Assembly (NCBI GenBank): GCA_022925895.1
Contig: JAKSYS010000255.1
Location: forward strand, 1 to 64,000
Source: Fragilaria crotonensis
Taxonomy: Eukaryota > Bacillariophyta > Fragilariophyceae > Fragilariales > Fragilariaceae
Direction: 5' to 3'
Length of the DNA stretch: 64,000 bases
Every line of letters begins with the position of its first letter. Within the stretch, counting starts at the first letter, position 1. Shown here in pieces: positions 28,640 through 56,057 of this stretch. Both the position numbers and the translations under genes were made by a program. Under the pieces are notes generated by a model that saw only the letters and a program-made list of their open reading frames with translations, ran no database searches and was not told where the DNA came from.

Positions 28640-29560
28640 TACACACTATATTCTGAATGAGTCGACGCCTTGAAAAGCAAGGAAACGATCGAGATCATTT
28701 TCTTTGGATATGATCGTTCCATACTGCCTACGAATGCGTAACGCAGCTCTGAAATTGGCCAGCGAGTATCAAGGGTGGGAGACGAAGTTGATTCTCCCAC
28801 TTCCGGTAGTAGGTTTCCTTTTAGCCTGCAGCTGGCACAAGACCCAAAGACCGTTGCAGTCACCGTCCTCGCATCATGTGCAGCGGAGGCATGACCCAGC
28901 AACTACCGGCGGAAATAACCGGCAGCTGTACTTGATAATGATGGGTGTGTCACCAGCAAGTCGTAGTGCCGGAGACCAGGCAGCTCTGGATATTTTTCGA
29001 AACGAATCACGAAGCCTAAAACTGCTGCCAAGCCATTGCAAGCTTCGACACGTCAGGTATTGCGACGGTCCTGATGATTTGTTTCCGTACCGCGTCGTTG
29101 TCGACTTGGAATGCGAAAGCGCCATTGCGGATTTGATGGCACGTCTGCATTTGTACGATTGAGCTCGCGCCTTCATCCCTACACTGCATTTTTTAATTGC
29201 TCCTCAGTGGCACGGAGGTGCCTTTCATCGCTTGGCCTATCACGTTCTGCTAGTCACGATCAGGACTCATACGATTCCCTATTTGGCATTTCAGTAGTAT
29301 TCGTCGGCCTATTCTCACTAGAAGGAAGGGACCTTCGGAAGCGCCGGACAAGAAACTAACTAACATCAGTTGAATCGAAATTCTGAACAATCGATTGTTG
29401 CAATCTAATGTGGTAGATACAAGCTATGCTTGGTTCATCATTCGTCGTTAATTCTCGTAAGGATGCGCATCAAACGCGATGCACGTGCGAGATGAATCGG
29501 ACAAAAAATCCTGCTAAAGGCAGCCGCACGATGGGATCGAGGATGCGTTGGTGTGTCATT
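28640..29560 (+). pseudogene. R1 relic beside ANK-D
   Basis: It starts with the R1 landmark GTCGACGCCTTGAAAAGCAA, carries CCAGCAACTACCGGCGGAAA and the coding piece ALDIFRNESRSLKLLPSH, then DDLFPYRVVVDLECESAIAD, and has a tail-like piece near 29.46-29.56 kb. The longest open frame is 28704-29162. It lies convergent to ANK-D. The same order of blocks is found at 40.5-41.8 and 48.0-49.2 kb. Confidence 0.55.
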
Positions 29561-29734
29561 TAGAGTCGTGCAAACACTAATTCGCCCGGATGATTAATGT
29601 AGACAGGAGTGGTGCAATACTTGTACTAAATCCCATGAGTAATCGACTCCCACATAACCTTGACTCTTCGTCAAACTCTTCCTCACTCCAACTTCTCCAA
29701 CAGAGCTCCCTCATTTGAATGAAACAACGTCGCC

Positions 29735-30661
29735 TCAGCGCAGCTTCCTTTTTCGATTTTGCCGCATCGAGGCTTGATATCCGAGACCAAGCGACGACGG
29801 CACTCCATGTTTCTCCAAAAGACTTGCAACATCAGACAGCACCGCACACTTGCACGCAATATCAAGAGCGGTAGATCCAGCGTTATTCTTGCAAGTCACA
29901 TCAACCTTCTCATGCGTCAAAATGTCGCGAACAACATCCAACTGCCCCCTAAGGGTTGCCCAGAACAGAGCAGTGTTACCTTGCGAACCTTTGGCATTGA
30001 CGTCGACGTCACGGTGTTTGAGGAACTCACGAACGACCTCCCAGTGACCCTCATAGCTCGCCCAGAGAAATGCTGAGCGGCCGTTCTTATCTTGGGCATT
30101 CACATGCACATTCTCGATCGTCAACAACTCGCGAACCACGTCCAAGTGACCCTTGTAGCTCGCCGCGATGAGAGCTGTGAAACCGCGTTCATCTTTGGTG
30201 TTTACATCCACATTCTCATTCGTCAACAGCTTGCCTACCACTCCAAGATGACACCTGTCGGAAGCCCTGATGAGAGCTGTTCGATTACGTTTGTCTTTTG
30301 CATTGACATCGACATTATTGTGCTTCAACAATTCGCAAACCACTTCCGAACGACCACTGATGCTCGCCACAATGAGTGCCGTGCGACCATGCTTGTCTTT
30401 GACAGTAACATCAACGTGTGTTTGCTTCAACAATTCGCAAACAATCTCTGCGTGCCCAAAACGGCTTGCCAGAATCAGAGCCGTATCACCACCTGCGTTG
30501 TTGTTGTTGTCATGATCACGTCTCTGAATCTCCAGAGATTCATAATCTATATAATACCGTACATTCACATTGGCGCCTTTTTGTAATAGGTCACGTACTT
30601 GAACAATGTCGCCTTTCATGACATTGTGGAACAACCTCTTGTTCAAATCATCCAAACTCAT
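29735..30661 (-). CDS. Short ankyrin-repeat protein, 308 aa (ANK-D)
   Basis: An intact frame from ATG at 30661 (MSLDDLNKRLFHNVMKGDIV, then VRDLLQKGANVNVRYYIDYE). The frame is open ten codons further upstream without an ATG, so a short 5' exon is possible. About seven ankyrin repeats include the invariant end modules (GRSAFLWASYEGHWEVVREF, GNTALFWATLRGQLDVVRDI). The tail LGYQASMRQNRKRKLR is strongly basic and could act as a nuclear signal. An N-rich loop (DHDNNNNAGGD) separates the N-module from the repeats. It is the shortest whole member, likely an intracellular binding protein. Confidence 0.8.
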   Translation of the reverse strand: MSLDDLNKRLFHNVMKGDIVQVRDLLQKGANVNVRYYIDYESLEIQRRDHDNNNNAGGDTALILASRFGHAEIVCELLKQTHVDVTVKDKHGRTALIVASISGRSEVVCELLKHNNVDVNAKDKRNRTALIRASDRCHLGVVGKLLTNENVDVNTKDERGFTALIAASYKGHLDVVRELLTIENVHVNAQDKNGRSAFLWASYEGHWEVVREFLKHRDVDVNAKGSQGNTALFWATLRGQLDVVRDILTHEKVDVTCKNNAGSTALDIACKCAVLSDVASLLEKHGVPSSLGLGYQASMRQNRKRKLR

Positions 30662-31202
30662 TGGTTCCTTGTCGCAGTTGCATTTCTGCAATGAATAGTG
30701 CCATCTGCAATCAGTGTGTATGATATCTACTTACGACGTATTCGAAGAGATTGGTATGCCAATGCTACATGCTACCATACTCATACCAGTGTGTGTATGA
30801 ACATATACATATGATTCGTGATTCGTGATGTCTCAGTGGATTCTGATTGGCGCAAGTATCATACAGTATCCGGTTGACTCTGATACCCAGTATGCGTCGA
30901 AACATACAATTCCAAGAAGCCTATATTCGCATGTCTGTACGAGTGTAAGAGTCTCCCACACTTGTCTTGGATCTTGGATCTGATGTGTATCTCTTTGGTT
31001 CAATTTCGAAGATTTGTTGCAATGACAATTGACGAATGAAGCACCAGAGGATGGTGGTGTCGCAAGGCGCATGAGTTTGAACAAAATGAACAGTTGTTAT
31101 TTCCAGAGTGTCGTGAGGGAAAAAAGAGGCTGATGTGAAGGAACGAACGTGTGTCGATTATGAAAATCATGGAGATTCTGAGACGCACGCGAGCACATAT
31201 CA
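30662..31202. promoter_or_regulatory. Divergent intergenic region between ANK-D and inverted ANK-E
   Basis: It lies between two ANK copies pointing apart and contains one CCAAT/GACATC element in reverse orientation (30825-30855). No other gene is seen. Confidence 0.45.
30825..30855 (-). promoter_or_regulatory. Shared ANK upstream element, inverted copy
   Basis: Read on the minus strand it is TTGCGCCAATCAGAATCC, then ACTGAGACATCACG. All other copies lie on the plus strand before minus-strand genes. This one is flipped, as expected for the plus-strand ANK relic that begins near 31.2 kb. The ACGT core is changed to ACAT. Confidence 0.5.
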
Positions 31203-31710
31203 ATGTCGATGATCATGATAGCTACGTTGATTTCGAAACAGTCCTATTGCTGGCGAGCCGTTTGGCGTCATTCATCGGTTCTTCGGGCAGTGTTGAAGCG
31301 TGAAGACATTGTTCCAGAATCATCCAAACATTATAATGTGAAATGTCAAAGCCACAGACGAAAGGGGTTACAAATGCCACCCCCTTGCGGCGAGTGACAT
31401 GTGGAGGACGCTTGCGAATTGTTGATACGCAATGATGTGGACGTCAGTGCCACAAAAAACAAGGCCACACGTCCTTATTTGGGGCGAGCCAATATGGCCC
31501 TATGAAGGTGGTTTGAGGTTTGCAATACCGTGTACTCCGAGTATGTGACTGCCAAAGACAACTTGAAACACGGGAATGTGAAGGTGAAAGGAGCTGTCTG
31601 ATATTGGAATCCTTTTGGAGAAAAATGGAGTGCAATCGTCACCTCCTCTCGAATATCAAGACTCGATGCGGCAAGGTAGAAAAAGAAGCGGCTCTGAGAT
31701 GACTTTTTAA
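31203..31710 (+). pseudogene. Plus-strand ankyrin relic (ANK-E)
   Basis: The only ANK copy on the plus strand. Pieces in different frames match the family in order: DSYVDFETVLLLASRLA and RHSSVLRAVLKREDIV (post-N-module region), CELLIRNDVDVSATKNKAT (one repeat), then LLEKNGVQSSPPLEYQDSMR and GRKRSGSEMTF to a TAA at 31710 (C-terminal tail). Almost all inner repeats are gone. With the inverted promoter element on its left and an inverted R1 relic on its right it forms a complete mirror-image unit. Confidence 0.7.
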
Positions 31711-31842
31711 TGGGATGGAGGCTGTTTGCAAGGGAAGTGGAAGGGAGAAAGGTGTTGACAGCAACTCAACGTTATTCAGGACCTGTTGAATGGAGGGCTA
31801 TGACTGAAAGTTCTGGAGATAGTGTATCCTGTAACACATGTT

Positions 31843-32410
31843 TGTTCGTTTCCTCGCGCATGACGTAAGCCGTGTTTGATGCACACGTTCAACAATACGT
31901 ACATCGATATTGACAACTTCTGATCCTAGTGCTGCAGCTAGCTTCCAAGTTTAACTGAAAACAAGAGATTCTTAGGTTTTCGCTTCGACTGATAGTCGTA
32001 AGCATCACAAAAAAATTGAATGTATTGTTCCTAAACTGTTATGGGCACACGATGTCATTATACTAGAATGTTCATTCTCCTTCTCGTGCCACGACGCATA
32101 GCTTCCAGTCTTGGTGGGCACATGAATGATCATGGCCTTGATCAAACCATGTTTCTTCGCATCGCCGAGGAATCACATGCATCCTTCTTGATGCGCAAGA
32201 CGTGTTCTTCATATCTCTCCACGACCGCACCAAGGCACAATCGGCTTCGTATGAGTTATGTTCTTGTTGCGATCCGGGTCGATGATTGTGAGTATTGTCT
32301 TGGATGCTCGCTTACAATGCCGGTCCAGAGGGATTTCCAGCTTGTCCGACCTACCGTTCCATGTGAGAATAGGCCGACAAATATTCTTGAAACACCAAAT
32401 GGGGCATGGT
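31843..32410 (-). pseudogene. R1 relic, inverted copy
   Basis: In reverse complement this matches the 3' half of R1 at 52.59-52.93 and 41.1-41.4 kb (AAGACAATACTCACAATCAT, CCCGGATCGCAAC, TTGCGCATCAAGAAGG, ATGGTTTGATCAAGGCCATG). The R1 tail is seen at 31843-31900. It faces the plus-strand ANK relic, keeping the convergent R1/ANK arrangement in mirror image. Confidence 0.6.
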
Positions 32411-32644
32411 ATAAGTAATGACGATGACTTACTTGCAATACACGAGTTGCGTTCGTCAAAAAATGACAAGGCTACCGCCCCAAACAAGGCTTGTTTAGAC
32501 CTCCCATCCATTCAGGCTGACAAGATAAGACACATCCTGACATACGCCTCCGGGATATTCATACCACCCTTCGTGAATGGACAAAGCATGAAAAACAGCC
32601 CATTGGCTATTCGCAAATGCAAAGATACCAACTATGTCGTTGTC
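32411..32644. other. Short spacer; nothing recognised
   Basis: No coding signal or repeat was recognised between the inverted R1 relic and the stop of ANK-F. Confidence 0.4.
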
Positions 32645-35057
32645 TTAATCATTCATATTCGTCACTTGGTGATCCGATAAAAGACGAGCCACGTCCAAAT
32701 GGCCACTATTGCTTGCACATGTGAGAGCTGTTCTGCCATTATCATCCATTATATTCACATCCACCCCTTCGTGACTCAATAAAGCACGAACCACTTCCAA
32801 ATTGCCGTAATTGCTTGCCGAGATGAGAGCTGTGTCACCATTAATATCAATGATATTCACATTCACCACCTCGTTATTCAATAAATCGCAAACCACATCC
32901 AAATGACCCCTTCTACTTGCCGAGATGAGAGCTGAGGTGCCATTATCATCCTGTATATTCACATCCACCTCTCTGTGACGCAATAACAAACGAACCACTT
33001 CCAAATGGTTATTGTCGCTTGCACAGATAAGAGCTGATTTACCAGAATAAGAACGGACATTCACATTCACTCCTTCGTGATTCAGTAAAGCACGAACCAC
33101 ATCCAAACGTCCACAATTGCTCGCATAGATCGTAGCTGTGCTACCCGTATATGCCTGGATATTCACATTCACGCCTTCGTGGTCTAGCAAAGCACGAACC
33201 ACTTCCAATCGGCCATAATTGCTTGCAATGATGAGTGCCGTATCCCCATTCGTATCCTCGATATTTACATTCACCCCATCATTATTCAATAATGCACGAA
33301 CCACTTCCACATGACCCTTTCTGCTTGCCGAGATAAGAGCTGTGTTGCCATCATCATCTTGGATATTCACATCCACCCCTCTCTGATGCAATAAAAGGCT
33401 AACCACATCCATATGGCCATTATTGATTGCACAGATAAGAGCTGTTTTACCAGAATACGCCTGGATGTTCACATTTATCCCTTCATAGTTCAATAAGGCA
33501 CGAACCACTTCCAATCGGCCAAAAGTGCTTGCCAAGATGAGTGCAGTGTCACCATTAGGATCCTGGATGTTCACATTCACCCCTTCGCGCTTCAATAAAT
33601 CACGAACCACTTCCCATTGGCCTTTGTAGCTCGCCAAAACAAGAGGTGTCCAGAGATAACTATTCTGGATACCCACATCCACAACTTCGTAATTCAACAA
33701 AGTAGTGGCCACTTCCAAATGGCCATTATTGTTCGCAAACGAGAGCTGTCCTGCCATCGTTATCCACGATATTCACATTCACCCCTCTGTGTCGCAATAA
33801 GAAGCGAACCACTTCCAAATGGCCATTATTGCTTGCGTAAATGAGAGCTGTCCCGCCATTATTATCCTGGATATTCACATTAAACCCGGCTTGATAAGAT
33901 AAAGCACGACGAACTTCCCATTTGGCATTAAACCTTGAAACGACGAGAGCTTTGTCGCCATCATCGCCATCATTGACCATGACCTTCAGATTCGCCCCTC
34001 TGTGATGCAATAAATCTAGAAGCACGTCCAATTCACCATTATACCTTGCAGTTATGATTGCAGTCCTGCCGTCATCCTCGATTTTTACATTCGCCCTCCA
34101 TTTGTACCGTAATAAAAAATGAACCACTTCCAAGTGGCCGTAATCGCACGCACAAATGAGAGCTGTCCTGCCATGAATGTCCTGAATATACATATTTACC
34201 TCATCTTGATACAGCAAATAACGAACCATTTCCCATTGGCCATTGCTGCTTGCCAAGATAAGTGCCGTCGTGCCTTTGTGGTCCTGGATATTCACATTCA
34301 TCCCTTTGTGATTCAATAAAGCACGAACCAATTCGAGATTGCCATGATTGATTGCCAACATGAGAGCTGTCCTGCCATGACTATCCTGGATGTTCACATT
34401 CGCCTTTAGCCTTTGACGCAATAAATAACGAACCATTTCCAAGTTGCCATTATGGCATGCACAGATGAGTGCGGTGTCGCCATCGTTATCCTGAATATTC
34501 ACATCCACCCCTTTGTGACGAGATAAATCACAAACTACTTCCAAATGATCATTGTTGCTTGCAGAGATGAGAGCAGTCATGCCATTATTGTCCTGAACAT
34601 TCACATCCACTCCTTCGTGATTCAATAAAGCTCGAACCACTTCCAATTCTCCATTATTACTTGCCAAAATGAGAGCTGTATGACCATCAGTATCCTGTAT
34701 ATTCACTTGTATCCCATCGTGATTTAATAACTCACGAACCACTTCAGATCGGCCATGATAGCTTGCCAAAATGAGCGCTGTCCTGCCATGATGATTCTGA
34801 ATATTGACATCCACCTTCTCATCATGATTCAACAACGCGCGAACTACTTCCAAATGGCCCCTTGCGCTGGCCAAGAAGAGAGCAGTATTGCCATGTACAC
34901 CAATTTTGGCATTTATATTTCCTCCTTGTTCCAAGAGGTCACGAACCCCATCGACATTCCCATCTCGTGCATTCTGAATCAATTCCAAATCCACATCCAT
35001 GTATCGGAGTCGTTTACATGTACCCGCTCCTTCTTCTTCTTCGCTGTCATGGGCCAT
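32645..35057 (-). CDS. Divergent ankyrin-repeat gene with one frame break (ANK-F)
   Basis: ATG at 35057 opens MAHDSEEEEGAGTCKRLRYM, an acidic start unlike the other members, then DGNVDGVRDLLEQGGNINAK. About 23-24 repeats follow the pattern NIQDNDGxTALIxASNNGHLEVVRALLNHEGVNV, where NIQD and RALLNHEG replace the NAKD and RELLKHEN of the neighbours. The constant C-terminal modules and tail are absent, and it ends LLSDHQVTNMND. The frame shifts once near 33745, splitting it into 443- and 370-codon parts, which otherwise read through cleanly. It is a separate subfamily, perhaps older, placed inside the cluster. Coding in spite of the shift is possible if that is a sequence error. Confidence 0.75.
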
Positions 35058-36038
35058 TTGTCTGCTGCTGCAGTTGCTGTGGCAGTTGCCTATCGTTTCT
35101 TGTTGTGCACCAATATACTACTAATTGGACTGCACAAGAATGGTGAGGGAAAAATGGATTACGAGGGATTGATGGACACTATATCAAGATTCCCATGTCG
35201 TGCATTTTTTGAATCAATTCCTGAATGAAATATACATCCGCCTCTTCAACAATGCTGTTACGGACCCTTCTTGGCAGCTGCGTTCAATGGTTTGTGTGCA
35301 CCAATGTTCTACGGTAGTCTGCACAATGGCGAGGGAGAAATGGTCAAGAAATATTGGACTCTGTATTTGTTGTTTGCATCCAACGAACATGTGCGTTTTA
35401 GTTCTCTATGTCGTATGTCATACTCGTACTCGAGTACCGGTATCATAGTTGGTTGTGGTGGTGGAGTATTGTCCTATCCCGTATGATACACATTGATCCT
35501 GCATACAACACTGGAAAATCCACTATGAAATATTTCTGCGCATGTGCGCGTACAGCACTACGGTGGATGCGCCAATCACAGTCCATTGAGACGTCATCAT
35601 GTTCAGTGTTTGCCTTTGACACTTCATAGATTCGCCATCATGGTGAAGATCTCCCACCATCATCAGCAAGCAAGCATGTCCGCACGTTTCCCCACACACA
35701 TGTCGAGACGTCGAGAGAGAGAGAGACTACGAAACCACAATCTCGCATGTCGGCCTCTCCCAAACTCAAACGCCAAGCCAAACAGTGGGACAAGAACGTT
35801 TCATAAGTCGTGCAACACTTTGACACGCAGACAAGACACGGAAATGTCCCTCGTCGGCTCTCCTGTCGCATGCTGGATTGAGCAAAAAGCAATTTAGACA
35901 AATCTCCACACAAAGTACATGTACTGGTAGTTCCGTTGTTACGATCGATCCGCACTCGGCAATTGTGAATGGGCCGTGAGAATCATATTGGGTGAATGAA
36001 GCTATTCAGCGGGACATCCTACTGTACTAGCTGCAAAG
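35058..36038. other. Upstream region of ANK-F with a partial self-duplication
   Basis: 35160-35340 is a degenerate copy of about 34960-35150 (GTGCACCAATATACTACT... against GTGCACCAATGTTCTACG..., GAATGGTGAGGGAAAAATGG against ATGGCGAGGGAGAAATGG), so the 5' end of ANK-F has been duplicated. The shared element lies at 35569-35600. 35740-36000 resembles the ANK upstream flanks at 59.3 and 62.1 kb. Confidence 0.45.
35569..35600 (+). promoter_or_regulatory. Shared ANK upstream element, copy before ANK-F
   Basis: GCGCCAATCACAGTCC, then ATTGAGACGTCATCAT, about 510 bp before the ATG of ANK-F. It has both the CCAAT box and GACGTCATC, although ANK-F belongs to a different repeat subfamily. Confidence 0.5.
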
Positions 36039-36581: not shown

Positions 36582-36589
36582 TTTGGGTT

Positions 36590-39513: not shown

Positions 39514-39552
39514 AGGCCAATCAGAATCCGTTGAGACGTCATCTTTTCGATT
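39514..39552 (+). promoter_or_regulatory. Shared ANK upstream element, copy before ANK-G
   Basis: AGGCCAATCAGAATCCG, then TTGAGACGTCATCTTTT, about 400 bp before the ATG of ANK-G. The conserved leader block lies between them at about 39145-39245. Confidence 0.55.
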
Positions 39553-40100: not shown

Positions 40101-40544
40101 TAGGGACCTCGGGGATGAGATCGTTAAAGTCATATTGGGAAAAACGATAGGAATTAGGAATAACCATGGTCGTGGGGTCTAGCCTACTCCCAGGCTACGG
40201 TCTCACCGTGTGGGTCGAGCGTCCATATAACCAAGACACAGCGGCAGCACGATAAACTAGATTTGGTGTTTTTTCTTGCAGTCGTGGTTTCGTGTACGAG
40301 TGTCTGTCGAACGCCTTCATAGCAACCCAAGTACAGGGAGGTATATGATGCGGGTGTGTCTATCATCCGTCAGTCGTAATTCGTGATAGGCGTTGAACTG
40401 GCATACGCACACGTATCATACGAGTATCATACATCTGTAGGTGGTGTACGGAACCTGCAATCGATCAGCGACAGTATCTACTACATACGTATAGATACGT
40501 ACGCTACATACTGAGCAAGTGAGAGGGCACAGTGATGTCTGACT
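40101..40544. other. Spacer; nothing recognised
   Basis: No coding frame or repeat that I can support. A few near-tandem CGTATCATACG/TACATACG motifs lie around 40400-40510. Confidence 0.35.
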
Positions 40545-41800
40545 GTGCCGACGCCTTGAAAGCAAAGAAACGACAGAGATCATTTCTTTGGATGTGATCA
40601 ATCCATTCTGTAGCAGATCAAACCAGGCGAGCCGTCAGTCAGTCTATGTGTGTACTGTTGTAACGCGGCTCTGAAATAGACTAGCGAGCGAGCATAAAGG
40701 GTGATACAAAGATACGTTTCCTTTGAGACTGCAGATGGCACAAGACCCGACCACCGTCACCCTTCTGGCAACATGTACAGCGGAGGCAACACCCAGCAAC
40801 TACCGGCGGAAATAACCAGCAGCTGTACTTGATGTATAACTTGACAAGATTGTTGCAGATCCCGATGCCAAAGTGATAGAAATTAAAGAACGAGCGGATA
40901 TTTCGGAAACGAATCATGACGCCCAAATCGCCGTCAAGGAATTGCATGATGCGACCCGCCAACTGCTTGCTAGTTCTGGATCTTGAACGATTGAAATCGC
41001 GCCTTCGTCGTTGAAACCGCATTCCATATTGCTTGCCAGTGGATCGGAAGTGCCTTTCATTGCATCGCAGGTCATATTGCAGGTCATGGTGATGACTCAT
41101 AACATTCCACGTTCGGCATTGCAAGAATATTCGTCTCGGGACCAACACAGTATGCGAGCATCGAGACCAATATCCGCAATCATGGACCCGGATCGCAACA
41201 TGTTGATAATCCAGACGAAGCGTCTTGCGCATCAACAAGGTGTAGGGCTTGGGATTCCTCGTGGATGCGACGAAACATTTTTTTGATCAAGACCTTGACT
41301 ATCCATGTGCCATCCAAGACGGGAACCTACGTCGCATTGCACGATGAGGAGGATGAAGCGCTTTCATAAATAAAGATTACAGTACATTGACACGCTCGGT
41401 TCAGAATTTTGTCTATCCTCGTCGTAAATACTCGCCACGATGCGGATGCAACATGATGCATATGGAACATGGCACATATCACGCGAGAGGAGACAATGAC
41501 AATGAAACATCCTACAAAATGGAGCCCCGATATTTTGATCAAGGCTTTGTTGGTGTGTCATCCAAGTGTAACGACAAAACGAGTGCGACCTGTGACAAAT
41601 GTATTACAACAAAACAACACTGGCACCATAAAGACGTGCACAAAGAAACCCTTCAGTAGAACTCCGCGTCATCAATGAGGGTGCACACGTCCATTTTCAT
41701 TTTCATTCTCATTCTCATCGGCAAACTATCCATTTGAATGACAAGCTATCGGCAAGTATATGTAAAAAGCGATTAATATAATGTATCATGATTCACGATG
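40545..41800 (+). pseudogene. R1 relic beside ANK-H, nearly full length
   Basis: It contains all R1 blocks in order: CCGACGCCTTGAAAGCAAAG, CCAGCAACTACCGGCGGAAA, the coding piece DKIVADPDAKVIEIKERADI and HDAQIAVKELHDATRQLLAS, GTATGCGAGCATC...ATGGACCCGGATCGCAAC, TTGATCAAGACCTTGACTATCC and the tail from about 41450. The heptad-like KIVADxDAxVxEIxERADI suggests a coiled coil. Frames are broken. It is convergent with ANK-H. Confidence 0.6.
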
Positions 41801-41821
41801 CATTCTCTGGCTTTGCCGATG

Positions 41822-44140
41822 TTAAGGGGTTAAATGATCACGTGAGCCTTTGCCTCGGTGCGAAGACTGCACGGCGTAGTTTTCCAAAAAACTAGCGATA
41901 TCAGTCAGGTCACACTTGCGAGCAATGTCAAGAGCGGTAGATCCAGCTTTATTCTTGAGAGTCGCATCCACTTTCTTGTGATTCAAAATGTCCCGGACCA
42001 CATCCAATCGTCCACTAAGAGTTGCCCAGATGAGAGCAGTGTTACCTTGCGAGCCTTTGACATTGACGTCGACGTCATGGTGTTTGAGGAACTCGCGCAC
42101 AACCTCCCAATGCCCTTTATAGCCCGCCCAGAGCAACGCGGTGCGACCTACATTATCATGGCCGTTAACGTCCACGTTATTGTGCTTCAACAACTCACGC
42201 ACCACCTCAACATCACCGAAGCAGCTCGCCGAGATGAGGGCTGTGCTGTCGTGATCGAATGTGACATTGACATCCAAATCCTTGTGCTTCAACAACTCGC
42301 GTACAACATCTGCACAGGCCCGTCGGACCGCCGCGATGAGCGCTGTGTCACCAAAGCGGTCTTTGACATTTACATCCACGCCATCGTGCTTCAATAACAC
42401 ACTCACCACATGTGCATGCCCGAAACAGCATGCCGAAGTCAGGGCGGTGCGGCCGTTTCTATCTGTGGCATTGACATCTACCTTATCATTTTTCAACAAC
42501 TCGCGAATGACTTCCACACTCACAGAGACCTTGTTGCTGGCCGCGATGAGGGCTGTGCAGCCATGTTTATCTTTGGCATTCAACTTCACATTATTATTCT
42601 GCAACAGCTCGCGAACCACATCCTCATGCCCATTATCGCTGGCAGCGATGAGGGCTGTGCGGCCGTGTTTATCTGTGGCATTGACATCCACGGTATCGTT
42701 CTTCAACAGCTCACGCACCACCTCCGCATGCCCATTTTTGCTGGCCGCGATGAGGGCTGTTTGGCCCTCTTCATCTGTGGCATTGACATCCAAATTTTTG
42801 TGCGTCATCAACTCGCGAACCACCTCAATGCGGTCATTTTTGCTCGCCAGGAGGAGCGCTGTGTCACCATTGTAGGCTTTGGCATTGGCATCGACGTTAT
42901 CGTGCTTCAATAACACGCTCACCACAGATGCACGACCACGACTGCTTGCCGTGATAAGGGCGGTGCGGCCGTGTTTATCTGTGACATTCATATCCGTGTT
43001 CTCGTGCATCAACAGCTCCCGCACCACCTCAACACGACCATTACGGCTCGCCGCGATGAGCGATGTGCATGAGAATAAGTCTTTGGCATTGACATCCAAA
43101 TTTTTGTGCGTCATCAACTCGCGAACCACCTCTATGCGGCCATTTATGCTCGCCAGGTGGAGCGCTGTGTTCTCACCATTCCAGGTTTTGGCATTGGCAT
43201 CGACGTTATCGTGCTTCAATAACACACTCACCACAGATGCATGACCACGAGTGCTTGCCGTGATAAGGGCGGTGCGGCCGTCTTTATCTGTGGCATTGAC
43301 ATCTACCTTATCATTTTTCAACAACTCGCGAATGACTTCCACGCTCCCATAGCCCTTGTTGCTAGCCACGATGAGGGCTGTGCGGCCGCGTTTATCTTTG
43401 GCATTGACATCCACTTTTTTGTGCATCAACAACTCACTTACCACATCTACATGGCGACCTTGGCACGCCGCAATGAGACCAGCAAAGACATCCTCAACGT
43501 CGTGCTTCAACAATTCGCGAATAACCTCTATACGGCCACAATAGCACGCCGCGATGAGGGCAGTTTTACCACATTCATCCTCGGCATTGAATTCCATGCA
43601 TACATGCCTCAACATCCGGTGAACGTTTCCTTTGTTTTTGGAGTTGACATCGATATTTTTGTGCTTCAACAACTCGCGAACAACCTCAACGCGGCCAGCA
43701 CGGCTTGCCACAAAGAGGGCTGTGTTACCCATGCCATCTTTGGCATTGACATCCACGTCGTCGTGCTTTAACAACTCGCGAACAACCTCTACGCGGCCAT
43801 GATCGCTTGCCACGAAAAGGACTGTGCGATCTTGCTTGTTTTTGGCATTGACATCGATATTTGCGTGCTTCAACAACTCGCAAACAATCCGCCAATCATT
43901 GAGCCGGCTTGCCAGAAAAAGGGCTGTATCGAAATCACCGTCGAAATCCACAAATTGAAGGCACGCAAGCCCGCCTCCCAGAATGTTCAGTGTCTCAGTA
44001 TCTATATATTTTCTTGCATTCACATCGGCACCTCTTTGCAATACGTCAAGAACTTGAGCAATGTTGCCTTGCGCGACACTCTGGAACAAACGCTCGTTCA
44101 ACTCGTTCAAACTGTCTGGCGCTTTGAGTGTTGATGCCAT
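41822..44140 (-). CDS. Ankyrin-repeat protein, 772 aa (ANK-H)
   Basis: The start is ATG at 44140 (MASTLKAPDSLNELNERLFQ), chosen by homology; the frame is open 56 codons further up to an unsupported Met. The N-module IAQVLDVLQRGADVNARKYI is followed by about 20 ankyrin repeats and the invariant end (GRTALLWAGYKGHWEVVREF, GNTALIWATLSGRLDVVRDI, KNKAGSTALDIARKCDL). The tail (SSHRGKGSRDHLTP) differs from its paralogues. One repeat is irregular (KHDVEDVFAGLIAACQGRHV), as in ANK-J. Pairs of repeats (HASVVSVLLKHDNVDANAK units) have been duplicated inside the gene. The usual CCAAT/GACGTCATC element is not found upstream. Confidence 0.87.
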   Translation of the reverse strand: MASTLKAPDSLNELNERLFQSVAQGNIAQVLDVLQRGADVNARKYIDTETLNILGGGLACLQFVDFDGDFDTALFLASRLNDWRIVCELLKHANIDVNAKNKQDRTVLFVASDHGRVEVVRELLKHDDVDVNAKDGMGNTALFVASRAGRVEVVRELLKHKNIDVNSKNKGNVHRMLRHVCMEFNAEDECGKTALIAACYCGRIEVIRELLKHDVEDVFAGLIAACQGRHVDVVSELLMHKKVDVNAKDKRGRTALIVASNKGYGSVEVIRELLKNDKVDVNATDKDGRTALITASTRGHASVVSVLLKHDNVDANAKTWNGENTALHLASINGRIEVVRELMTHKNLDVNAKDLFSCTSLIAASRNGRVEVVRELLMHENTDMNVTDKHGRTALITASSRGRASVVSVLLKHDNVDANAKAYNGDTALLLASKNDRIEVVRELMTHKNLDVNATDEEGQTALIAASKNGHAEVVRELLKNDTVDVNATDKHGRTALIAASDNGHEDVVRELLQNNNVKLNAKDKHGCTALIAASNKVSVSVEVIRELLKNDKVDVNATDRNGRTALTSACCFGHAHVVSVLLKHDGVDVNVKDRFGDTALIAAVRRACADVVRELLKHKDLDVNVTFDHDSTALISASCFGDVEVVRELLKHNNVDVNGHDNVGRTALLWAGYKGHWEVVREFLKHHDVDVNVKGSQGNTALIWATLSGRLDVVRDILNHKKVDATLKNKAGSTALDIARKCDLTDIASFLENYAVQSSHRGKGSRDHLTP

Positions 44141-44760
44141 ATTGACTAAAAGGATAAGGGCTCGTGTCCGATTTGTGGGCGAACACTTTATGATAGAGTG
44201 CAGGATTGAGCAAGGAAATGTGCTCTTGTGATAATGAAGTTGATCCAGTCGTGCTCTAAACAACGACACACGGGTTTGAAGGATGCGCGACTGCAGAACT
44301 GCGGGCAAGTCTCTAACAACCCACGAACCACCTCCAAATGACCCCTACTACCGGTAGTAGGTACCTGGTGGCAACGTATAACAGCCATCAGCACAAACAA
44401 TCACTGTTCCGTTGCGTTTCAAGGCGTCAAGAGACGAGAAGAGGACTGCGGTGTTTGCGTTTGGTGCATATGCAAATTCTGTCCGTCTGGCTGTCGCTTA
44501 CTCTGCGCTCCTGTTTCCAGCTTGTGAAAACGTGCCCGGAGTTTGCAAACATACCAAACGCGCTCAGCCCCGCAACAAAACATCGTTTGGCTAATCTGCT
44601 GTTGACAAGAGGAGCTCAGATGTGACGCCGAAAGCTTCATTTCACTTTGGCTCTGCCCCCCGGTTTGGCGCCTTTTTGCTCACAATCAAAGGCGAATTCA
44701 ATGGAAATGAGCGTCAATAATGACCTCAGTAGGCCAGGCCGACCGCTGTAGTAGTGACAC
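44141..44760. other. Upstream of ANK-H with a tiny ANK relic
   Basis: The leader block is cut short (GTCCGATTTGTGGGCGAAC, then unrelated DNA). At 44300-44345 a minus-strand scrap reads RGHLEVVRGLLETC, one ankyrin half-repeat. The rest has no supported gene. The shared promoter element is missing, which suggests a deletion or rearrangement here. Confidence 0.45.
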
Positions 44761-47530: not shown

Positions 47531-47570
47531 AGGCTAATCAGACTCTGTTGAGACGTCATCATTTTCGATT
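47531..47570 (+). promoter_or_regulatory. Shared ANK upstream element, copy before ANK-I
   Basis: AGGCTAATCAGACTCTG, then TTGAGACGTCATCATTTTCG, about 330 bp before the ATG. The CCAAT box has changed to CTAAT, while the GACGTCATC part is intact. Confidence 0.5.
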
Positions 47571-47959
47571 TCTGGAGTATGGTACTGGTACTGCGGCTCT
47601 TCAGCAGCTCTCAACATAGAGGCTGTTCCGCATCCTGACACGTAGGACAACACGAAAAGGCCCATCTCAGGCTGTTCGTTAGCCTCACACGGTGGAGCAC
47701 ACGTTGGCGACGTTTCGGAAAAAACTACAAGTACCAGATACTGTACCAGGTACCGGTTAAGTTGCGCCTATTAAAGGGATGGGGGATGGGGGGAATGTAT
47801 GATACAGTATACAACAGATCCAAGAACTCGACGGAGAGCCCTCCATTCGATCAGAATTACACAAGGGTTACTATTGGAGCTCATCCCAGATACCGAAAGT
47901 GGCATTTGAAAGCAATAATTCTTGCCGAAGCACACCGATGTATGAACTTTTATTTCTGA
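47571..47959. other. Spacer; nothing recognised
   Basis: No coding signal is seen. There are short GTACCAGGTACC-like palindromic stretches near 47730-47755. Confidence 0.35.
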
Positions 47960-49190
47960 CTTTGTGGCGACGCCTTGAAAAGCAACGGAACGACAGATGA
48001 TTCTTTGGACGTGCTCGATCCATACGCTTTCGTTTAGCAGATTAAACACCGCCAGTCTATGAGTGCACTGTAGTAACGCAGCTCTGAAATAGACCAGCGA
48101 GCGACCATCAAGGGTGAGACAAACGATGATTCTCCTACCACTACTACCGTTAGTAGTGTTGTTATCATATGAGACTGCAGCCGGCACCGACCAATGCAGT
48201 GGAGGCAACACCCGACAACTACCGGGAGCTGTTCTTGGAGATGGGACATGAGAGTCGCTGTTGGAACGCGTACTCTAATGATAGAACACAGTGTACTAGC
48301 GGTGGCGGACCTTTGCATGGGCGTACTCGGGGACTATTTTGCCGTCCAATACCCGAGCTGTCCATTGTGAGCTGTCCATTGTGAGCTGCCATTTGGCGAC
48401 AGTTCAAGTTCAAGGAGCGAAGGATACTGCATCTTTTTTACCACTTTCCACGTTGAACGAACTTGACATGATTCTTGCGGATCTTGATACCGAAGTGACA
48501 GAAATTACTGATCGTGTGGATATTCTTCGGAACGAATCGCGAAGCCCAAACTGCGGCGATGCAATTGCAAGCTGAGGGCACGTCAAGTTTAGGTCCTGAT
48601 GATCAGTATCCGTAGCGCATTGTTGTTAATGTGGAATTCCAAACCACAATCTCAGACTTTGCTGAGCATTGCAGTTCTGGATCTTTTATGATTTGAACTG
48701 GCACCGTTATCCCTGCAATCGCATTCAATCCATACATTTCTGGAAATTGCTCGTCAGTGGCACGGTGGCGCCTTTCATCGCATCGCACATAACGTTCTGA
48801 AATTCATCGTCACGACACACATCAATCCCCATTTGGTATTTCAAGAGTATTCGTCAGCATACCGTCACAAGTATCGGACCGTCAGATACTCCGGACGACC
48901 CTCCGGACCGACATGGTATGCGAACATCCAAGACAATACTCACAATCATGGACCCGGATCCTGTACGAAGCCGATTTGTGCTTGAGGACAGTCGAGGAGG
49001 CGTATGAAGAACATGTCTTGAGCATCAAGAAAGTGGAGGGCATGGGATTCCTTGGGGATGCGAAGAAACATGTTTTGATCGAGACCATGAATATCCATGT
49101 GCCATCCAACATGGAAACCGATGCCGCGTGGAACGATATGGAAAAATTTAGCGGTTTCATAGAATACATTCCATGTTATTGACTTTGTGT
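47960..49190 (+). pseudogene. R1 relic beside ANK-J
   Basis: It carries the R1 blocks GCGACGCCTTGAAAAGCAAC, the coding piece LNELDMILADLDTEVTEITD then VDILRNESRSPN, GATGATCAGTATCCGTA, GTATGCGAACATCCAAGACA and ATCAAGAAAGTGGAGGGCAT. Open parts are 48339-48575 and 48913-49182. It is broken into several frames and convergent with ANK-J, whose stop lies 147 bp away. Confidence 0.6.
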
Positions 49191-49336: not shown

Positions 49337-51649
49337 TCATACACAACGGGCATCAATTCTGCATGGCGTGGCATGTTTCTTCAAGAGACTAGCGATATCA
49401 AGCAGCTCACACTTGCAAGCAATGTCAAGAGCGGTAGTCCCAGCTTTATTCTTGCAAGTCACATCCACTTTCGTGTGGTTCAAAATGTCGTGAACCACAT
49501 CTAACTGCCCCCCAAGAGTTGCCCAGATAAGAGCAGTATTGCCTTGCGAGCCTTTGACATTGACGTCGACGTTATGGTGTTTGAGGAACTCGCGAACAAT
49601 CTCCCAGTGGCCCCAATAGCTCGCCCAAAGAAATGCGGTGCGGCCTGCATTATCTTGGGCATTTACATCCACATTCTCATGCATCAACAACTCACGAACC
49701 ACCTCCAAACGACCCTTGTAGCTCGCCGTGACTAGGGCTGTGCGACCATTTATGCCTTTGGCGTTCACATCCACATAGTTGCGCACATATCCAACCACCT
49801 GCTTATTCTCAATGTTGTGTTTCAACAAGACTCGAACAACGTCCACACGGCCACATTGACTCGCAATAATGAGTGCTGTAAAACCGAGTCCTTGTTCGGC
49901 ATTTACATCGACATCTTTGTGCGTCAACAGCTCGTGAACTACCTCAATACGATCGTTGAGGCTCGCCACAATGAGCGGTGTCCAATGGAACCTGTCTTCG
50001 GCATTCACATTCACATGTTCGTGCTTCAACAACTCCCGAACAATGTCGACACGACCATCTTTGCTAGCCCCGTGGAGAGCTGTGAAGCCAGAGCTGCGGT
50101 TTTTGGCATTCACGTCCACGTGTTTGTGCATCAACAACTCGCGAACCACATCCACATGGCCGCTACCGCACGCCAGGATGAGAGGAGTTGGACCGTCTGC
50201 ATAGCCATCATCAAGTTCTTCAGCTAGGTCATCTTCGTCGAGTTCTATGTCTTCTTGCTCATCGCCTTCGTCGTCTAATTCTTCGTCGTCTTGTTCCTCC
50301 TCCTCAAGTTCTTCGTCTTCGTCTTCAGATTCCACTTCGTCTTCGTCTTCAGATTCCACTTCGTCTTCGTCTTCAGATTCCACTTCGTCTTCTTCGTGTT
50401 CAAGCTCCATTTTATCTTCTTTGCAATTGACATCGACATTATCGTGTTTCAACAGCTCGCGAACAACCTCTACGCGGCCATGTTTACTTGCCGCACCGAG
50501 GGCACTGCCACCCATATTGTCTTTCGCATTGATATCCACATTTTTGTGCTTCAACAGCTCGCGAACAACCTCTACGTGGCCATGTTTGCTAGCCACAAAG
50601 AAGGCAGTCTTACCCGTGTTGTCATTGGCATTGATATTCACTTTTTTATGCTTTAACAACTCGCGAACGACCTCTATGTGGCCATTTTCGCTTGCCGCAA
50701 AGAGGGCAGTCCTATCCGTTTCGTCGTTGGCATTGATATCCACATTTTCCTGCATTAGTAGCTCGCTAACCACATTCACAAAGCCATTATCGCTGGCCGC
50801 AATGAGGGCTGTGCGACCAAATTTATCTGTGTCATTGAAATCCATTTTTTCATGCTTCAACAACATGCGAACCACCCCAACATGGCGACTTGGGCACGCC
50901 GCTATGAGGTCAGCAAAGCTATCCACAATATCGTGCTTCAACAACTCGCGAACAACTTCTTCGCGGCCACAACGACACGCCGCGATGAGGGCAGTTTCAC
51001 CCTTGTTGTCTTTGGCATTGACATCCACATCTTTGTGCTTCAACAACTCGCGAACAACCTTTACACGGCCAAAAAAGCACGCCGCGATTAAGGCACTTTC
51101 ACCCATGTTGCCTTTGGCATTGACATCCACATCATTGTGCTTCAGCAACTCGCGAACAACCTCTATGTGACCATCACGGCTGGCCACGTAGAGAGCAGTT
51201 TCACCATGAACTTCATTGCAATCGAAAGGCATTCTACGGAACCCCAACATCGGATGAACGTTACCTTCGTTTTTGGCGTTGACATTGATATTTTTGTGCT
51301 TCAACAACTCGCGAACGACCGCAACGCGGTCTGCGCGGCTATTATAGCGGCTTGCCACAAAGAGGGCTGTGTTACCCATGCTGTCTTTGGCGTTGACATC
51401 GACATCTTTGTGCTTCAACAACTCGCACACAACCTGAGAATAACCGAGACGGCTTGCCAGAATAAGGGGTGTACATGTATAGAAATCATCGGTGTCCTGT
51501 AAACAAATCAAGCCATACCGGCCACCTTTTCTTGCATTCACATCGGCCCCTCGTCGCAATACGTCACGAACTTGAGCAATGTTGCATCGCGCAACACTCT
51601 GGAATAAAGTCTCGTTCAACTCGTTCAAATTATCTGGCGGATTGAGCAT
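49337..51649 (-). CDS. Ankyrin-repeat protein with internal acidic insert, 770 aa (ANK-J)
   Basis: Relatives start MTSMLNPPDSL. Here the first codon is TTG (LTSMLNPPDNL), so the ATG at 51649 (MLNPPDNLNELNETLFQSVA) is taken, three residues later. The frame is open upstream but without an ATG. About 19 ankyrin repeats carry the subgroup's long-loop repeat (KNEGNVHPMLGFRRMPFDCN). In the middle (about residues 415-485) lies an extremely acidic stretch with three EVESEDED units and ELEEEEQDDEELDDEGDEQE. Repeats then resume (GPTPLILACGSGHVDVVREL). The end modules are normal (GRTAFLWASYWGHWEIVREF, GNTALIWATLGGQLDVVHDI). The insert could be a flexible hinge or a basic-partner binding site. The frame is intact. 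Confidence 0.85.
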   Translation of the reverse strand: MLNPPDNLNELNETLFQSVARCNIAQVRDVLRRGADVNARKGGRYGLICLQDTDDFYTCTPLILASRLGYSQVVCELLKHKDVDVNAKDSMGNTALFVASRYNSRADRVAVVRELLKHKNINVNAKNEGNVHPMLGFRRMPFDCNEVHGETALYVASRDGHIEVVRELLKHNDVDVNAKGNMGESALIAACFFGRVKVVRELLKHKDVDVNAKDNKGETALIAACRCGREEVVRELLKHDIVDSFADLIAACPSRHVGVVRMLLKHEKMDFNDTDKFGRTALIAASDNGFVNVVSELLMQENVDINANDETDRTALFAASENGHIEVVRELLKHKKVNINANDNTGKTAFFVASKHGHVEVVRELLKHKNVDINAKDNMGGSALGAASKHGRVEVVRELLKHDNVDVNCKEDKMELEHEEDEVESEDEDEVESEDEDEVESEDEDEELEEEEQDDEELDDEGDEQEDIELDEDDLAEELDDGYADGPTPLILACGSGHVDVVRELLMHKHVDVNAKNRSSGFTALHGASKDGRVDIVRELLKHEHVNVNAEDRFHWTPLIVASLNDRIEVVHELLTHKDVDVNAEQGLGFTALIIASQCGRVDVVRVLLKHNIENKQVVGYVRNYVDVNAKGINGRTALVTASYKGRLEVVRELLMHENVDVNAQDNAGRTAFLWASYWGHWEIVREFLKHHNVDVNVKGSQGNTALIWATLGGQLDVVHDILNHTKVDVTCKNKAGTTALDIACKCELLDIASLLKKHATPCRIDARCV
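50193..50410 (-). repeat. Acidic-coding repeat inside ANK-J
   Basis: Three 24-bp units (CTTCGTCTTCAGATTCCA type) code EVESEDED, followed by a longer non-periodic Glu/Asp run. This purine/pyrimidine-skewed stretch looks like slippage-grown sequence between two ankyrin repeats. Confidence 0.75.
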
Positions 51650-51982
51650 TGATGTCAAGTCAATTGAACGCTGAGAACAAGGGTACACGTCCGATTTGTG
51701 GTCGAAGCTGTGGAACCAGCCAGACTTATCTGCCAACCAAGAGAATGTAGTACTCTAGCTATAACGAGGAGTAGAAGCGTATCGACAGTGAAACAGCAGT
51801 GTATCAACTCAGTGAACACACAGAATAGAATACAGGACCTTGATCAAGGAAATGTGCTGATGCCTTGAAATTGATCCAAACGTGCAAGGACTCCGAGTGT
51901 GTCCTCTGCTATTGGTGCTGGAGTGCTACTTCTGTACTGGCATACCAGTACCATCCAGATGAAATACGAGTAAACAGCATTT

Positions 51983-52020
51983 AGACCAATGAGAATCCGT
52001 TGAGGCGTCTTCTTTTTCGA
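51983..52020 (+). promoter_or_regulatory. Degenerate shared ANK upstream element before ANK-J
   Basis: GACCAATGAGAATCCG, then TTGAGGCGTCTTCTTTTTCG. CCAAT is kept but GACGTCATC has changed to GGCGTCTTC. It lies about 335 bp before the ATG. Confidence 0.4.
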
Positions 52021-52309: not shown

Positions 52310-53350
52310 ATCTTCCAATCCTCCTCAGTTGGACCTTTTTGACGTCAAGGCTTGTTTTATCAAGTTTGCAAGGCCTCAACCAAGTCGTTGAACCGGAGAC
52401 CAACGAACAAGTTCAAGGATCGATCTATACGACTTGCCACATGGAAATATGCCAAAGCGAGAGATGGTAGAAAGCGAGCGGATTTTTTCGATCGAAACCA
52501 GCATGAAGCCCAAACTGTTGCAACGCAATTGCAAGCCGAGACACGCCAAGTCTTGTACCGTCGTTTCAGTCCTGATGATCAGTATCCGTATCTCCTAGGT
52601 ACCATTTCCCAATTTGGCATTTCAAGAATATTCGTCAGCCCAGCCTCACCAGGAACGGACCGTCGGATACGCCGGACGACCCCCGGGACCAGCATGGGTA
52701 TGCGAATATCCAAGACAATACTCACAATCATGGACCTGGATGGCAACAAGATCATGACTCGTACAATGCCGATTCGTGCTTTGGGACGGTCGTGGAGGGA
52801 TGTGGAGTACACGTCTTGCGCATCAAGAAGGTGAAGGGCATGGGAATCCTCGTGAACGCGGAGAACCATGTTTTGAACAAGACCATGATCATCAATGTGG
52901 CATCCAAGTTGGGAACTTGTGTGGCATGGCATGATACGGAGAATGAAGCGCTTTCATTGGTTTCTGGTTCATTGACATCGTGTACAGGTAACAATACATT
53001 CATAGCGTGCATGAGTGGGGAAGCCATGTGAACACCAAACACGGCGAAACAACATGCGAGAGGAAACATGCCAACAGCCTTCTAAATGCAGTCCCAAGAC
53101 TGCAATCGAGGATTTGTTGTTGTGCCATCACGTGTCACGAAAAGAATATGATTTTAATGCGACTGGGTAACAAAGTTATGAACACAACAAACTCTGACTG
53201 ACCATAACGACATGTGAACAGAGGTGCTTGGGTAAAAATCCGCGGTCATCAATAAGGATGCACTCGTCCATAATCATTTTCATTGGTAAGCGATTCTTTT
53301 GAACGATAATCGGCAAGTCCATGCGAATCGATTGCTGTACTGGATCACGA
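52310..53350 (+). pseudogene. R1 relic beside ANK-K, longest open frame
   Basis: The frame 52352-52834 (160 codons) reads RKRADFFDRNQHEAQTVATQ, then LQAETRQVLYRRFSPDDQYP and on to ISKTILTIMDLDGNKIMTR. Beyond it the R1 3' part (GTCTTGCGCATCAAGAAGG, GAACAAGACCATGATCAT) and tail (53030-53350) follow in other frames. This copy gives the best view of R1: a charged, probably helical protein of unknown family. It is convergent with ANK-K. Confidence 0.5.
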
Positions 53351-53582
53351 TACATTCTCTCATCCTGCATTTTACTTTCCATAATGCGAACCTACATCAT
53401 GCTCTTTCCTAAACGTTCAAAGATGTTACAACTACATAATTTCCAAAGTTTTTCATCAAAGCTCTCCATTCAACGGCTCCCACACAATGTTCGGTCGCTA
53501 AAAACCTCATTCTCGCTCACACTGCCCTAGCAGGGCAGCAATTGTTCCAATGACAGCACTGCTACCTTTTCCAACCAAGCCG

Positions 53583-56057
53583 TCATATCCTCGCAGGATA
53601 TTCGAGACGACGCGAAGACTCCTTAAGATGTTGCTCTAAAAGAATGGCGATATCTGACAGCTCACACTTGCGAGCAATGTCAAGAACCGTAGAACCAGCT
53701 TTATTCTTCCAATTGGAATCCACTTTGTCGTGTTTCAACATATCGCGAACCACACCCACCTGCCCCCTAAGGGTTGCCCATATTAGAGCAGTGTTACCTT
53801 GCGAGCCAATAGCATTAACGTCGACCTGCTGGTGTCTGAGCAACTCGCGGATAATCTCCCAGTGCCCCGTATAGCTGGCCCAGAGAAACGCTGTTCGGCC
53901 TAAACTATCTTTTGCATCCACATCCACACTCTCCTGCATTAATAACTCGCGAACCACCTCAAAATGGTCATTGGAGCTCGCCACAATAAGGGATGTGAAC
54001 CCGCGTTTGTCTTTGGCATTGACATCCACATTCTTGTCCATCAACAACTCGCGAACCACATCAACATAGCCATATTGGCTCGCCACAACGAGAGATGTGC
54101 GCTCCGATGAGTCTTTTGCACTTACATCCACATCACGGTGCTTCAATAACTCGCGAACCACCTCCACACGGCCATTGTTGCTCGCTGCGATGAGGGCCGT
54201 GTGATCATACGTGTCTTTGGCGTTCACATCCAGATTTTGGTGCTCAAGCAACTCGCGAACCAAATTCGCGGAGCCACGACTGCTCACCGCGATGAGGGAT
54301 GTGCGACCGTCGCTGTCCCTAACATTGACATCAACGTCTTTGTGCTTCAACAACTCTCGAACCACCTCCACGTGGCCACGAACGCAAGCTAATAGGAGGG
54401 ATGAGAGACCACCTCTTACTTTAACATTCACATCAATACTTTCGTGTGTCAACAATTCGCGAACAACGTCCACACGACCGACCTCGCATGCCAAAACTAG
54501 GGCTGTGCGATCACATGTGCCTTTGGCATTCACATCGATATTTTCGTGCCTCAGCAACTCTCGAACAACCTCCACATGGCCACCAAAGCAAGCTGCGATG
54601 AGGGATGAGATACCACCTCTTTCTGTCACATTCACATCAATGCTTTCGTGTGTCAATAATTCGCGAACAACGTCCACACGACCGACCTCGCATGCCAAAA
54701 CTAGGGCTGTGCAATATGTGCCTTTGGCATTCACATCGATATCTTCGTGCCTCAACAACTCTCGAACAACCTCCACATGGCCATAAAAGCAAGCTACGAC
54801 AAGGGATGAGAGACCACCTCTTTCTGTAACTTCTGTAACATTCACATCAATACTTTCATGTGTCAACAATTCGCGAACAACGTCCAAACGACCGACTTTG
54901 CAAGCCGAAAACAGGGCTGTGCGATCACATGTGCCTTTGGCATTCACATCGATATCTTCGTGCTTCAGCATCTCACGAACAACCTCTAAATGGCCGCCAT
55001 CGCAAGCCGCAAATAGGGCTGTTCGATCATCTATGTCTTTGACATTCACATCAATACATTCATGCGTCAACAACTCGCGAACCACATCCAAATGGCCGAT
55101 CTCGCAAGCCAAAAATAGGGCTGTGCGATCACAAGTGCCTTTGGCATTCACATCGACATTTTCTTGCTTCAGCATCTCACGAACAACCTCAACGTGACCC
55201 CTGCTGCTCGCCACGATGAGGACTGTGAGACCGCATTTCGTTTTAGCATTCACATCAATATTCTCGTGATTTAACAACTCTCGAACTACCTCTGAACGAC
55301 CATCACCACAAGCTGCTACGAGGGCTGTGCGATCATACCTGTCTTTGACATGAACATCCAAGTTCTTGTGCTTCAATAACTCGCGAACCACCTCCACATG
55401 GCTGTCATCACAAGCCGCTAAGAGGGCTGTGCGGTCATATGTGTCTTTTACATTAACATCCACATATTCATGCTTCAACAATTCTCGTACTACCTCCGCA
55501 TGGTTGCCCTCGCAAGCCACTATGAGGGATGTAAGACCCTCTTTTTCTTGAGCATTTAAATCCAAATTTTTGTGCATCAATAACTCGCGAACCACCTCCA
55601 CATGGCTGTCGACGCATGCCGCGAATAGGGCTGTTCGATCATACGTGTCCTTGACATTTACATCGATATGTTCGTGCTTCAACAATTCTCGAACAACGTC
55701 CACATGGTTGCCCTCGCAAGCCACGAAGAGGGATGCGAGGCCGCGGTATGATTTAGCATTCACATCAATATCCCCTTGCATTAACAACTCTCGAACTACC
55801 TTCGAATGACCGAGACGGCTTGCCAGCAAAAGGGGTGTTTCGACATCAACGTAGGCGTCTACGCCTCCCGGAACCTCCAAAGTATCATAAATTATATCAC
55901 ATCTTGCATTCACATCGGCCCCGTTTTTCAATAGGTAACGAATTTGATCAATGTTGCCTTCCTTGACGCTCTGGAACAAACTCTCATTCATCTCATTCAA
56001 GCTCATGGGCTGCCTGGTGCACCACCATCCTCTAGCGAGTTTCAGCATTGATGTCAT
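53583..56057 (-). CDS. Ankyrin-repeat protein, 824 aa (ANK-K)
   Basis: An intact frame from ATG at 56057 (MTSMLKLARGWWCTRQPMSL, then NEMNESLFQSVKEGNIDQIR). It is the nearest whole relative of the giant pseudogene ANK-A, with the same 3' flank and repeats such as GSANLVRELLEHQNLDVNAK. About 23 ankyrin repeats are present, including several near-identical two-repeat blocks (ACEVGRVDVVRELLTHESID followed by GGLSSLVVACFYGHVEVV). The end modules are GRTAFLWASYTGHWEIIREL, GNTALIWATLRGQVGVVRDM and RRLEYPARI. It is probably an intracellular binding scaffold. The upstream CCAAT/GACGTCATC element is not found. Confidence 0.88.
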   Translation of the reverse strand: MTSMLKLARGWWCTRQPMSLNEMNESLFQSVKEGNIDQIRYLLKNGADVNARCDIIYDTLEVPGGVDAYVDVETPLLLASRLGHSKVVRELLMQGDIDVNAKSYRGLASLFVACEGNHVDVVRELLKHEHIDVNVKDTYDRTALFAACVDSHVEVVRELLMHKNLDLNAQEKEGLTSLIVACEGNHAEVVRELLKHEYVDVNVKDTYDRTALLAACDDSHVEVVRELLKHKNLDVHVKDRYDRTALVAACGDGRSEVVRELLNHENIDVNAKTKCGLTVLIVASSRGHVEVVREMLKQENVDVNAKGTCDRTALFLACEIGHLDVVRELLTHECIDVNVKDIDDRTALFAACDGGHLEVVREMLKHEDIDVNAKGTCDRTALFSACKVGRLDVVRELLTHESIDVNVTEVTERGGLSSLVVACFYGHVEVVRELLRHEDIDVNAKGTYCTALVLACEVGRVDVVRELLTHESIDVNVTERGGISSLIAACFGGHVEVVRELLRHENIDVNAKGTCDRTALVLACEVGRVDVVRELLTHESIDVNVKVRGGLSSLLLACVRGHVEVVRELLKHKDVDVNVRDSDGRTSLIAVSSRGSANLVRELLEHQNLDVNAKDTYDHTALIAASNNGRVEVVRELLKHRDVDVSAKDSSERTSLVVASQYGYVDVVRELLMDKNVDVNAKDKRGFTSLIVASSNDHFEVVRELLMQESVDVDAKDSLGRTAFLWASYTGHWEIIRELLRHQQVDVNAIGSQGNTALIWATLRGQVGVVRDMLKHDKVDSNWKNKAGSTVLDIARKCELSDIAILLEQHLKESSRRLEYPARI

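Follow-up and report, generated by a model that had tools for sequence, protein, structure and literature searches.

The locus described here touches on three known systems: cyclophilin-type peptidyl-prolyl isomerases (PPIases; Pfam PF00160), ankyrin-repeat (ANK) proteins (PF12796) and the birth-and-death evolution of gene families. It lies in a 64,000-nt stretch of the diatom Fragilaria crotonensis (contig JAKSYS010000255.1, positions 1 to 64,000; hereafter, the window), where a sequence called R1 repeatedly stands on the plus strand and faces an ANK gene on the minus strand. R1 resembles the cyclophilin-type PPIases in that three relatives from the same genome pass the Pfam cut-off and a profile of four proteins (R1 and these relatives) aligns solved cyclophilins, and differs from them in that R1 itself has no Pfam match above the cut-off and has a long linker after its hydrophobic N-terminal stretch. 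Its partners are long ANK-repeat proteins, but those that face R1 have a common C-terminal module. As in birth-and-death evolution, the R1/ANK pair shows repeated duplication, largely independent loss and recent tandem copies in an array, whereas one of the two linked genes is here broken in all found copies but one and the other is mostly kept. No description of such a pair was apparent from the titles and abstract beginnings among the papers listed for diatom cyclophilins, ankyrin repeats and gene family expansion; new here are the identity of R1, an intact copy of it and evidence that its copies died mostly one by one. We consider it very probable that R1 is the relic of a cyclophilin-like gene, its product putatively membrane-anchored, that was duplicated with its ANK neighbour and decayed largely independently in the copies. 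The feature is real and largely explained, as a case of ordinary gene birth and death.

In the window, the order that an initial annotation of this DNA had described at five sites was found at all five (units a to e, Table 1): R1 is on the plus strand, the next gene rightward is an ANK gene on the minus strand, and what is left of R1 is located past the 3' end of that gene. The homology of R1 between sites, likewise claimed at first, was recovered by a self-comparison of the non-ANK parts of the window (6575-7240 vs 52867-53570, 74% match, 2e-127, the best; 48826-49160 vs 52607-52957, 76%, 1.5e-72; 28987-29349 vs 48517-48896, 70%, 6e-39). A single gapped alignment of units a and e (6575-9494 vs 52867-55825, 76.6%) runs from the R1 tail across the spacer and over part of the ANK gene; in these two units, R1 and ANK were thus duplicated together. 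Between the R1 coding remnant and the end of the ANK frame's stop we measured ~574 (a), 385 (b), 453 (c), 174 (d) and 625 bp (e), and not the 20-240 bp given earlier. The earlier count of at least five copies holds for the five sites and had missed a sixth R1 copy (f), which is inverted and faces no ANK gene. Frameshifts are present in all six R1 copies, where breakage had been proposed for most, and four of the five ANK partners are a single open frame, in agreement with the proposal that most stay open. The partners of a and b were recognised by tblastn, and that of a additionally by Pfam in its longest frame. Units b, c and d also have in common a stretch upstream of R1 and outside the R1 gene, which was matched at those units only in the genome searches that we made.

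The genome (62.1 Mb, 881 contigs, here given C-numbers; the window's contig is C176) was searched three times for R1 DNA with copies d, e and b as queries, and all resulting counts are lower bounds. R1 DNA was matched only on C176, C159, C231 and C530, at a minimum of 12 places: a to f in the window, g, h and i on C159, j1 and j2 on C231 (97.9% identical over 1459 columns) and k on C530. Here C159 was seen beyond its first 2000 bases, and C231 and C530 within the fetched stretches. An ANK gene is faced at 10 of the 12 places, the exceptions being the inverted f and h, and 11 of the 12 copies are remnants. The remaining one, h on C159, is the intact R1 gene that the initial annotation had proposed to look for elsewhere in the genome. 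A back-translated pattern for DDQYPY, one of the peptide motifs noted at first, gave no match in the genome, a search for which the codon choice was uninformative.

Copy h (C159:67860-68864) is one uninterrupted frame from ATG to stop encoding 334 residues. It contains one strongly hydrophobic stretch (residues 23-41, Kyte-Doolittle mean 2.65), which is probably a membrane anchor, then a linker with versions of the peptide motifs first seen in the window, and a C-terminal cyclophilin-like domain. The identity of this domain came from three relatives of h in the same genome, on C16 (41% identity, 5.6e-17), C393 (37%, 1.3e-10) and C284 (27%, 7.6e-8), the last having a long N-terminal part before the domain. 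These match PF00160, the cyclophilin-type PPIase family, with E-values of 5.8e-6, 6.1e-8 and 1e-13 and scores of 27.1, 33.5 and 52.3 bits, respectively, against a curated cut-off of 21.7; a genome-wide PF00160 search lists the C393 and C284 places, not C16. Furthermore, a profile of h and the three relatives found 21 PDB sequences at E <= 0.01 (best 1.3e-7), every one of them named cyclophilin, peptidyl-prolyl isomerase or PPIL2. Because the relatives match PF00160 and the four-protein profile finds solved cyclophilins, R1, which the initial annotation could not place in a family, is by its sequence a diverged cyclophilin-like gene, with a distant kinship that is transitive through the relatives. 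The motif FHRI, which contains cyclophilin A's catalytic arginine, can be seen by eye in h and not in the three relatives, and the other catalytic positions of human cyclophilin A were not placed confidently. Going by the family, the intact protein might, as a guess, be a membrane-tethered folding or binding factor. The result puts a name to a repeated relic that had gone unrecognised and points to diverged, N-terminally anchored cyclophilin-like proteins that a plain family search misses. Among other searches, three open R1 pieces of the window matched no Pfam family, viral contigs compared with the four-protein alignment gave 59 pattern matches of which none was confirmed, and four weak matches of h to calcium-binding protein 1 (E 0.017 or worse), which cover the linker and sequence past it, were judged to be chance.

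The surroundings of h partly resemble those of the other copies. Its 3' flank (69205-69336) resembles the spacer of unit e (53342-53473, 72%) to ~110 bp from the stop of the ANK gene of e, after which no ANK match occurs before 72635, the end of the partner of i. Instead, a gene with a DUF6824 domain (PF20710, 1.6e-17) lies downstream of h, and further downstream a piece at 71229-71330 resembles the flank of other ANK genes. Copy h thus either lost a former ANK neighbour or predates the joining of the ANK gene, and we lean towards loss. Upstream of h, two adjacent 355-bp units are 97.5% identical (L049, C159:66882-67569).

To follow the decay, each of copies a, b, c, d, e, f, g, i, j2 and h (that is, all but j1 and k) was aligned to h, and changes were counted by codon position at sites covered by at least four copies. 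The private changes of the nine broken copies are spread evenly (90/79/73 at first, second and third positions, chi-square p 0.40; 0.112/0.093/0.123 per examined site), and those of h are not (1/0/6, p 0.012; Fisher vs the broken copies 0.005). Shared variants, at sites with two variants each in at least two copies, favour third positions (21/25/60). The combination of flat private changes with third-position-biased shared variants indicates a past under protein selection and a recent past without it, h excepted. From this pattern R1 appears to have worked as a gene through much of the spread of the unit and then to have died mostly copy by copy. The lesions suggest the same: among the ten remnants mapped (all but j1), 96 of 104 frameshifting indels and premature stops stand at a place of their own, in a cheap-gap alignment that could split a single event into several. 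Without k, with 19 the least reliable copy, the count is 79 of 85. The R1 remnants therefore combine homology to an intact gene, frame lesions and a neutral substitution pattern, as pseudogenes do, and the earlier suggestion that R1 was a passenger is supported, the gene having been copied with ANK and then showing neutral decay. The accompanying idea that selection drops R1 needs qualification, as R1 is not simply dispensable when an intact, apparently constrained copy exists outside the window. For study, a single genome here offers a series of lesions and substitutions in which one member of a convergent pair dies many times while one copy stays constrained.

The ANK partners belong to a large set of genes, with at least 246 matches to PF12796 in the genome. 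Outside the window, the partners of i and k are each one long frame (1169 and 427 codons), that of g is in two overlapping frames, and for that of j2 an open frame covers only part of the ANK match. The C-terminal module marks the ANK subfamily to which the R1-facing genes belong. Among 19 genes picked as clear matches to this module within the fetched stretches, a choice that left aside a more diverged C159 gene (15475-15651, 49%) and the partner of j1, cut by the contig end, nine face R1 and ten do not. The proposal that selection keeps ANK is weakly supported, by the open frames of four of the five window partners. The third-position excess among private ANK changes is, however, modest (68/63/105 for e, 69/50/77 for i), it is the same in the broken partner of a (53/38/78), and e is flat in another trio (26/21/20). 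Selection on the ANK frames may therefore be weak or uneven, or its signal may be blurred by exchange between repeats. The clear C-terminal module of the neighbouring genes is missing from the ANK gene at 32540-35177. By eye, this gene looks more like ANK genes on the plus strand of C159, and it could represent a second ANK subfamily inside the cluster.

The history that we propose would have started from a cellular gene whose product had a hydrophobic stretch near its N-terminus, then a linker, and a cyclophilin-like domain at its C-terminus; this gene stood tail to tail with genes of a single ANK subfamily. Segmental and mostly tandem duplication, presumably by unequal crossing-over, would have multiplied the convergent pair with its spacer in the window's contig and carried it to three other contigs. 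As the ANK array expanded, surplus R1 copies would have been freed from selection through a presumed redundancy; these passengers would then have decayed largely separately, in all found copies but one, while the ANK partners mostly stayed open.

Several observations weigh against this history. First, h alone has no Pfam match above the cut-off (PspA_IM30 reaches 0.018 over the linker, below its own cut-off) and finds no cyclophilin among solved structures, and the three relatives rather than h may carry the match of the four-protein profile. Second, the test on h comprises seven private changes, and its use as the alignment reference can lower its own count. Third, in a tree of the ANK 3' ends the R1 label needs five changes against a shuffled mean of 6.7, with 74 of 500 shuffles as low; this tree, in which three of 16 inner branches are well supported, is compatible both with one origin followed by losses and with mixing by recombination. 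Fourth, lesions coincide slightly more often than expected: 8 of 104 are at the same place (c/g, d/e twice, f/k; random mean 2.6, 17 of 500 placements as high) and 24 of 104 lie within 3 bases of each other (random mean 12.9, 2 of 500 as high), by which some copies may carry inherited damage or hot spots may exist.

This last count slightly lowers our confidence in the proposed history and slightly raises that in the alternative by which R1 was dead before much of the copying and several remnants are duplicates of one pseudogene. We regard this alternative as unlikely, if worth keeping in mind. It would account for 11 of 12 copies being remnants and for the coincident lesions of c/g, d/e and f/k (with b/d within 3 bases) above random placement. 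Moreover, the upstream stretch of b, c and d has no match in the flank of h, which means that part of the copying followed a rearrangement. A pseudogene copied after its death would nevertheless leave the third-position bias of the shared variants unexplained, as well as the large majority of lesions at places of their own.

It is also conceivable, at a distinctly low probability, that the convergent ANK and cyclophilin-like genes at one time worked together, for instance as an ANK protein with a tethered partner for folding or binding, and that the loss of R1 beside ANK reflects selection against adjacency rather than redundancy. Such selection would fit the loss of R1 from each ANK-facing copy that was found and the present absence of an ANK neighbour at the intact h. 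Very improbably, the ANK genes are regulated by the R1 segments as RNA or antisense, and broken R1 frames are irrelevant; that R1 lies past the 3' end of ANK at 10 of the 12 places would suit such a role, which is difficult to reconcile with the many private changes and large gaps of the copies and with the ten of 19 ANK subfamily genes that lack R1. Still less probably, R1 is part of a transposable element inserting beside ANK genes, as one inverted copy and the spread over four contigs might suggest. Just 12 places were found, 10 of them facing ANK genes rather than in many unrelated contexts, the ANK-side spacers of several units are homologous, and h is intact, looks constrained and contains no transposase match in Pfam, so that on these observations R1 does not look like a known transposon with independent insertions, an outcome that the initial annotation had allowed for, and the idea was dropped. 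That the copies are live genes misread for their introns, as a likely eukaryotic genome would permit, is the least probable of all given the single uninterrupted frame of h, the small frameshifts inside aligned stretches and the flat private changes. The idea of R1 as a minus-strand continuation of the ANK gene was dropped, as the constrained frame is on the plus strand.

Table 1 Features of the window. Extents in R1 remnants refer to nucleotides (nt) of the intact copy h; codons are counted stop to stop.
Feature	Positions	Strand	State
R1 copy a	6382-6667	+	remnant, h nt 190-388 and 911-1005; middle missing; frameshifts; 1 premature stop
ANK partner of a	7242-12326	-	broken, five overlapping frames
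Upstream stretch, unit b	28652-28936	+	non-R1
R1 copy b	28989-29349	+	remnant, h nt 337-724; frameshifts; 2 premature stops
ANK partner of b	29735-30730	-	one open frame, 331 codons
R1 copy f	32071-32430	-	inverted remnant, h nt 629-993; 2 frameshifts; 3 premature stops
Upstream stretch, unit c	40535-40833	+	
R1 copy c	40838-41368	+	remnant, h nt 278-409 and 502-1004; several deletions; frameshifts; 2 premature stops
ANK partner of c	41822-44344	-	one open frame, 840 codons
Upstream stretch, unit d	47952-48225	+	
R1 copy d	48393-49162	+	longest window remnant, h nt 211-1005; 10 frameshifting indels; 1 premature stop
ANK partner of d	49337-51754	-	one open frame, 805 codons
R1 copy e	52449-52957	+	remnant, h nt 305-445 and 653-1003; 7 frameshifting indels; no premature stop seen
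ANK partner of e	53583-56060	-	one open frame, 825 codons
CCAAT-like/ACGTCA element	1223-1248, 12638-12663, 30824-30849 (-), 35573-35598, 39518-39543, 47535-47560, 51987-52012		<=3 mismatches

Other features of the window were seen in passing. A conserved element with a CCAAT-like box and an ACGTCA core lies upstream of ANK genes or an ANK relic, with seven matches in the window (Table 1) and none in 100 shuffles. A slightly longer form has 54 matches in the genome at <=2 mismatches and none in the control. On C387, C482 and C689, the element forms inverted pairs spaced by 0.9 kb that resemble the terminal repeats of a small mobile element. Near the end of the window, the end of an ANK gene and its flank, without R1, were recently duplicated in tandem (59044-60777 and 61842-63557, 85%, with 93% in the non-ANK part), and a genome search found two full copies only of this flank. 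Two repeat arrays have open frames of more than 1000 codons: a GC-rich one (69%) at 21835-26004 with a 24-bp unit and a PT disordered repeat match at its start, and one of 72-bp units at 26101-27896, which is leucine-rich-repeat-like by eye. A transposase fragment with Plant_tran and DDE_Tnp_4 matches is at 3854-4612 on the minus strand, and inverted repeat arms occur within 17974-21154 (19928-20243 vs 21054-20740, 78%; 17974-18072 vs 21154-21064, 85%).

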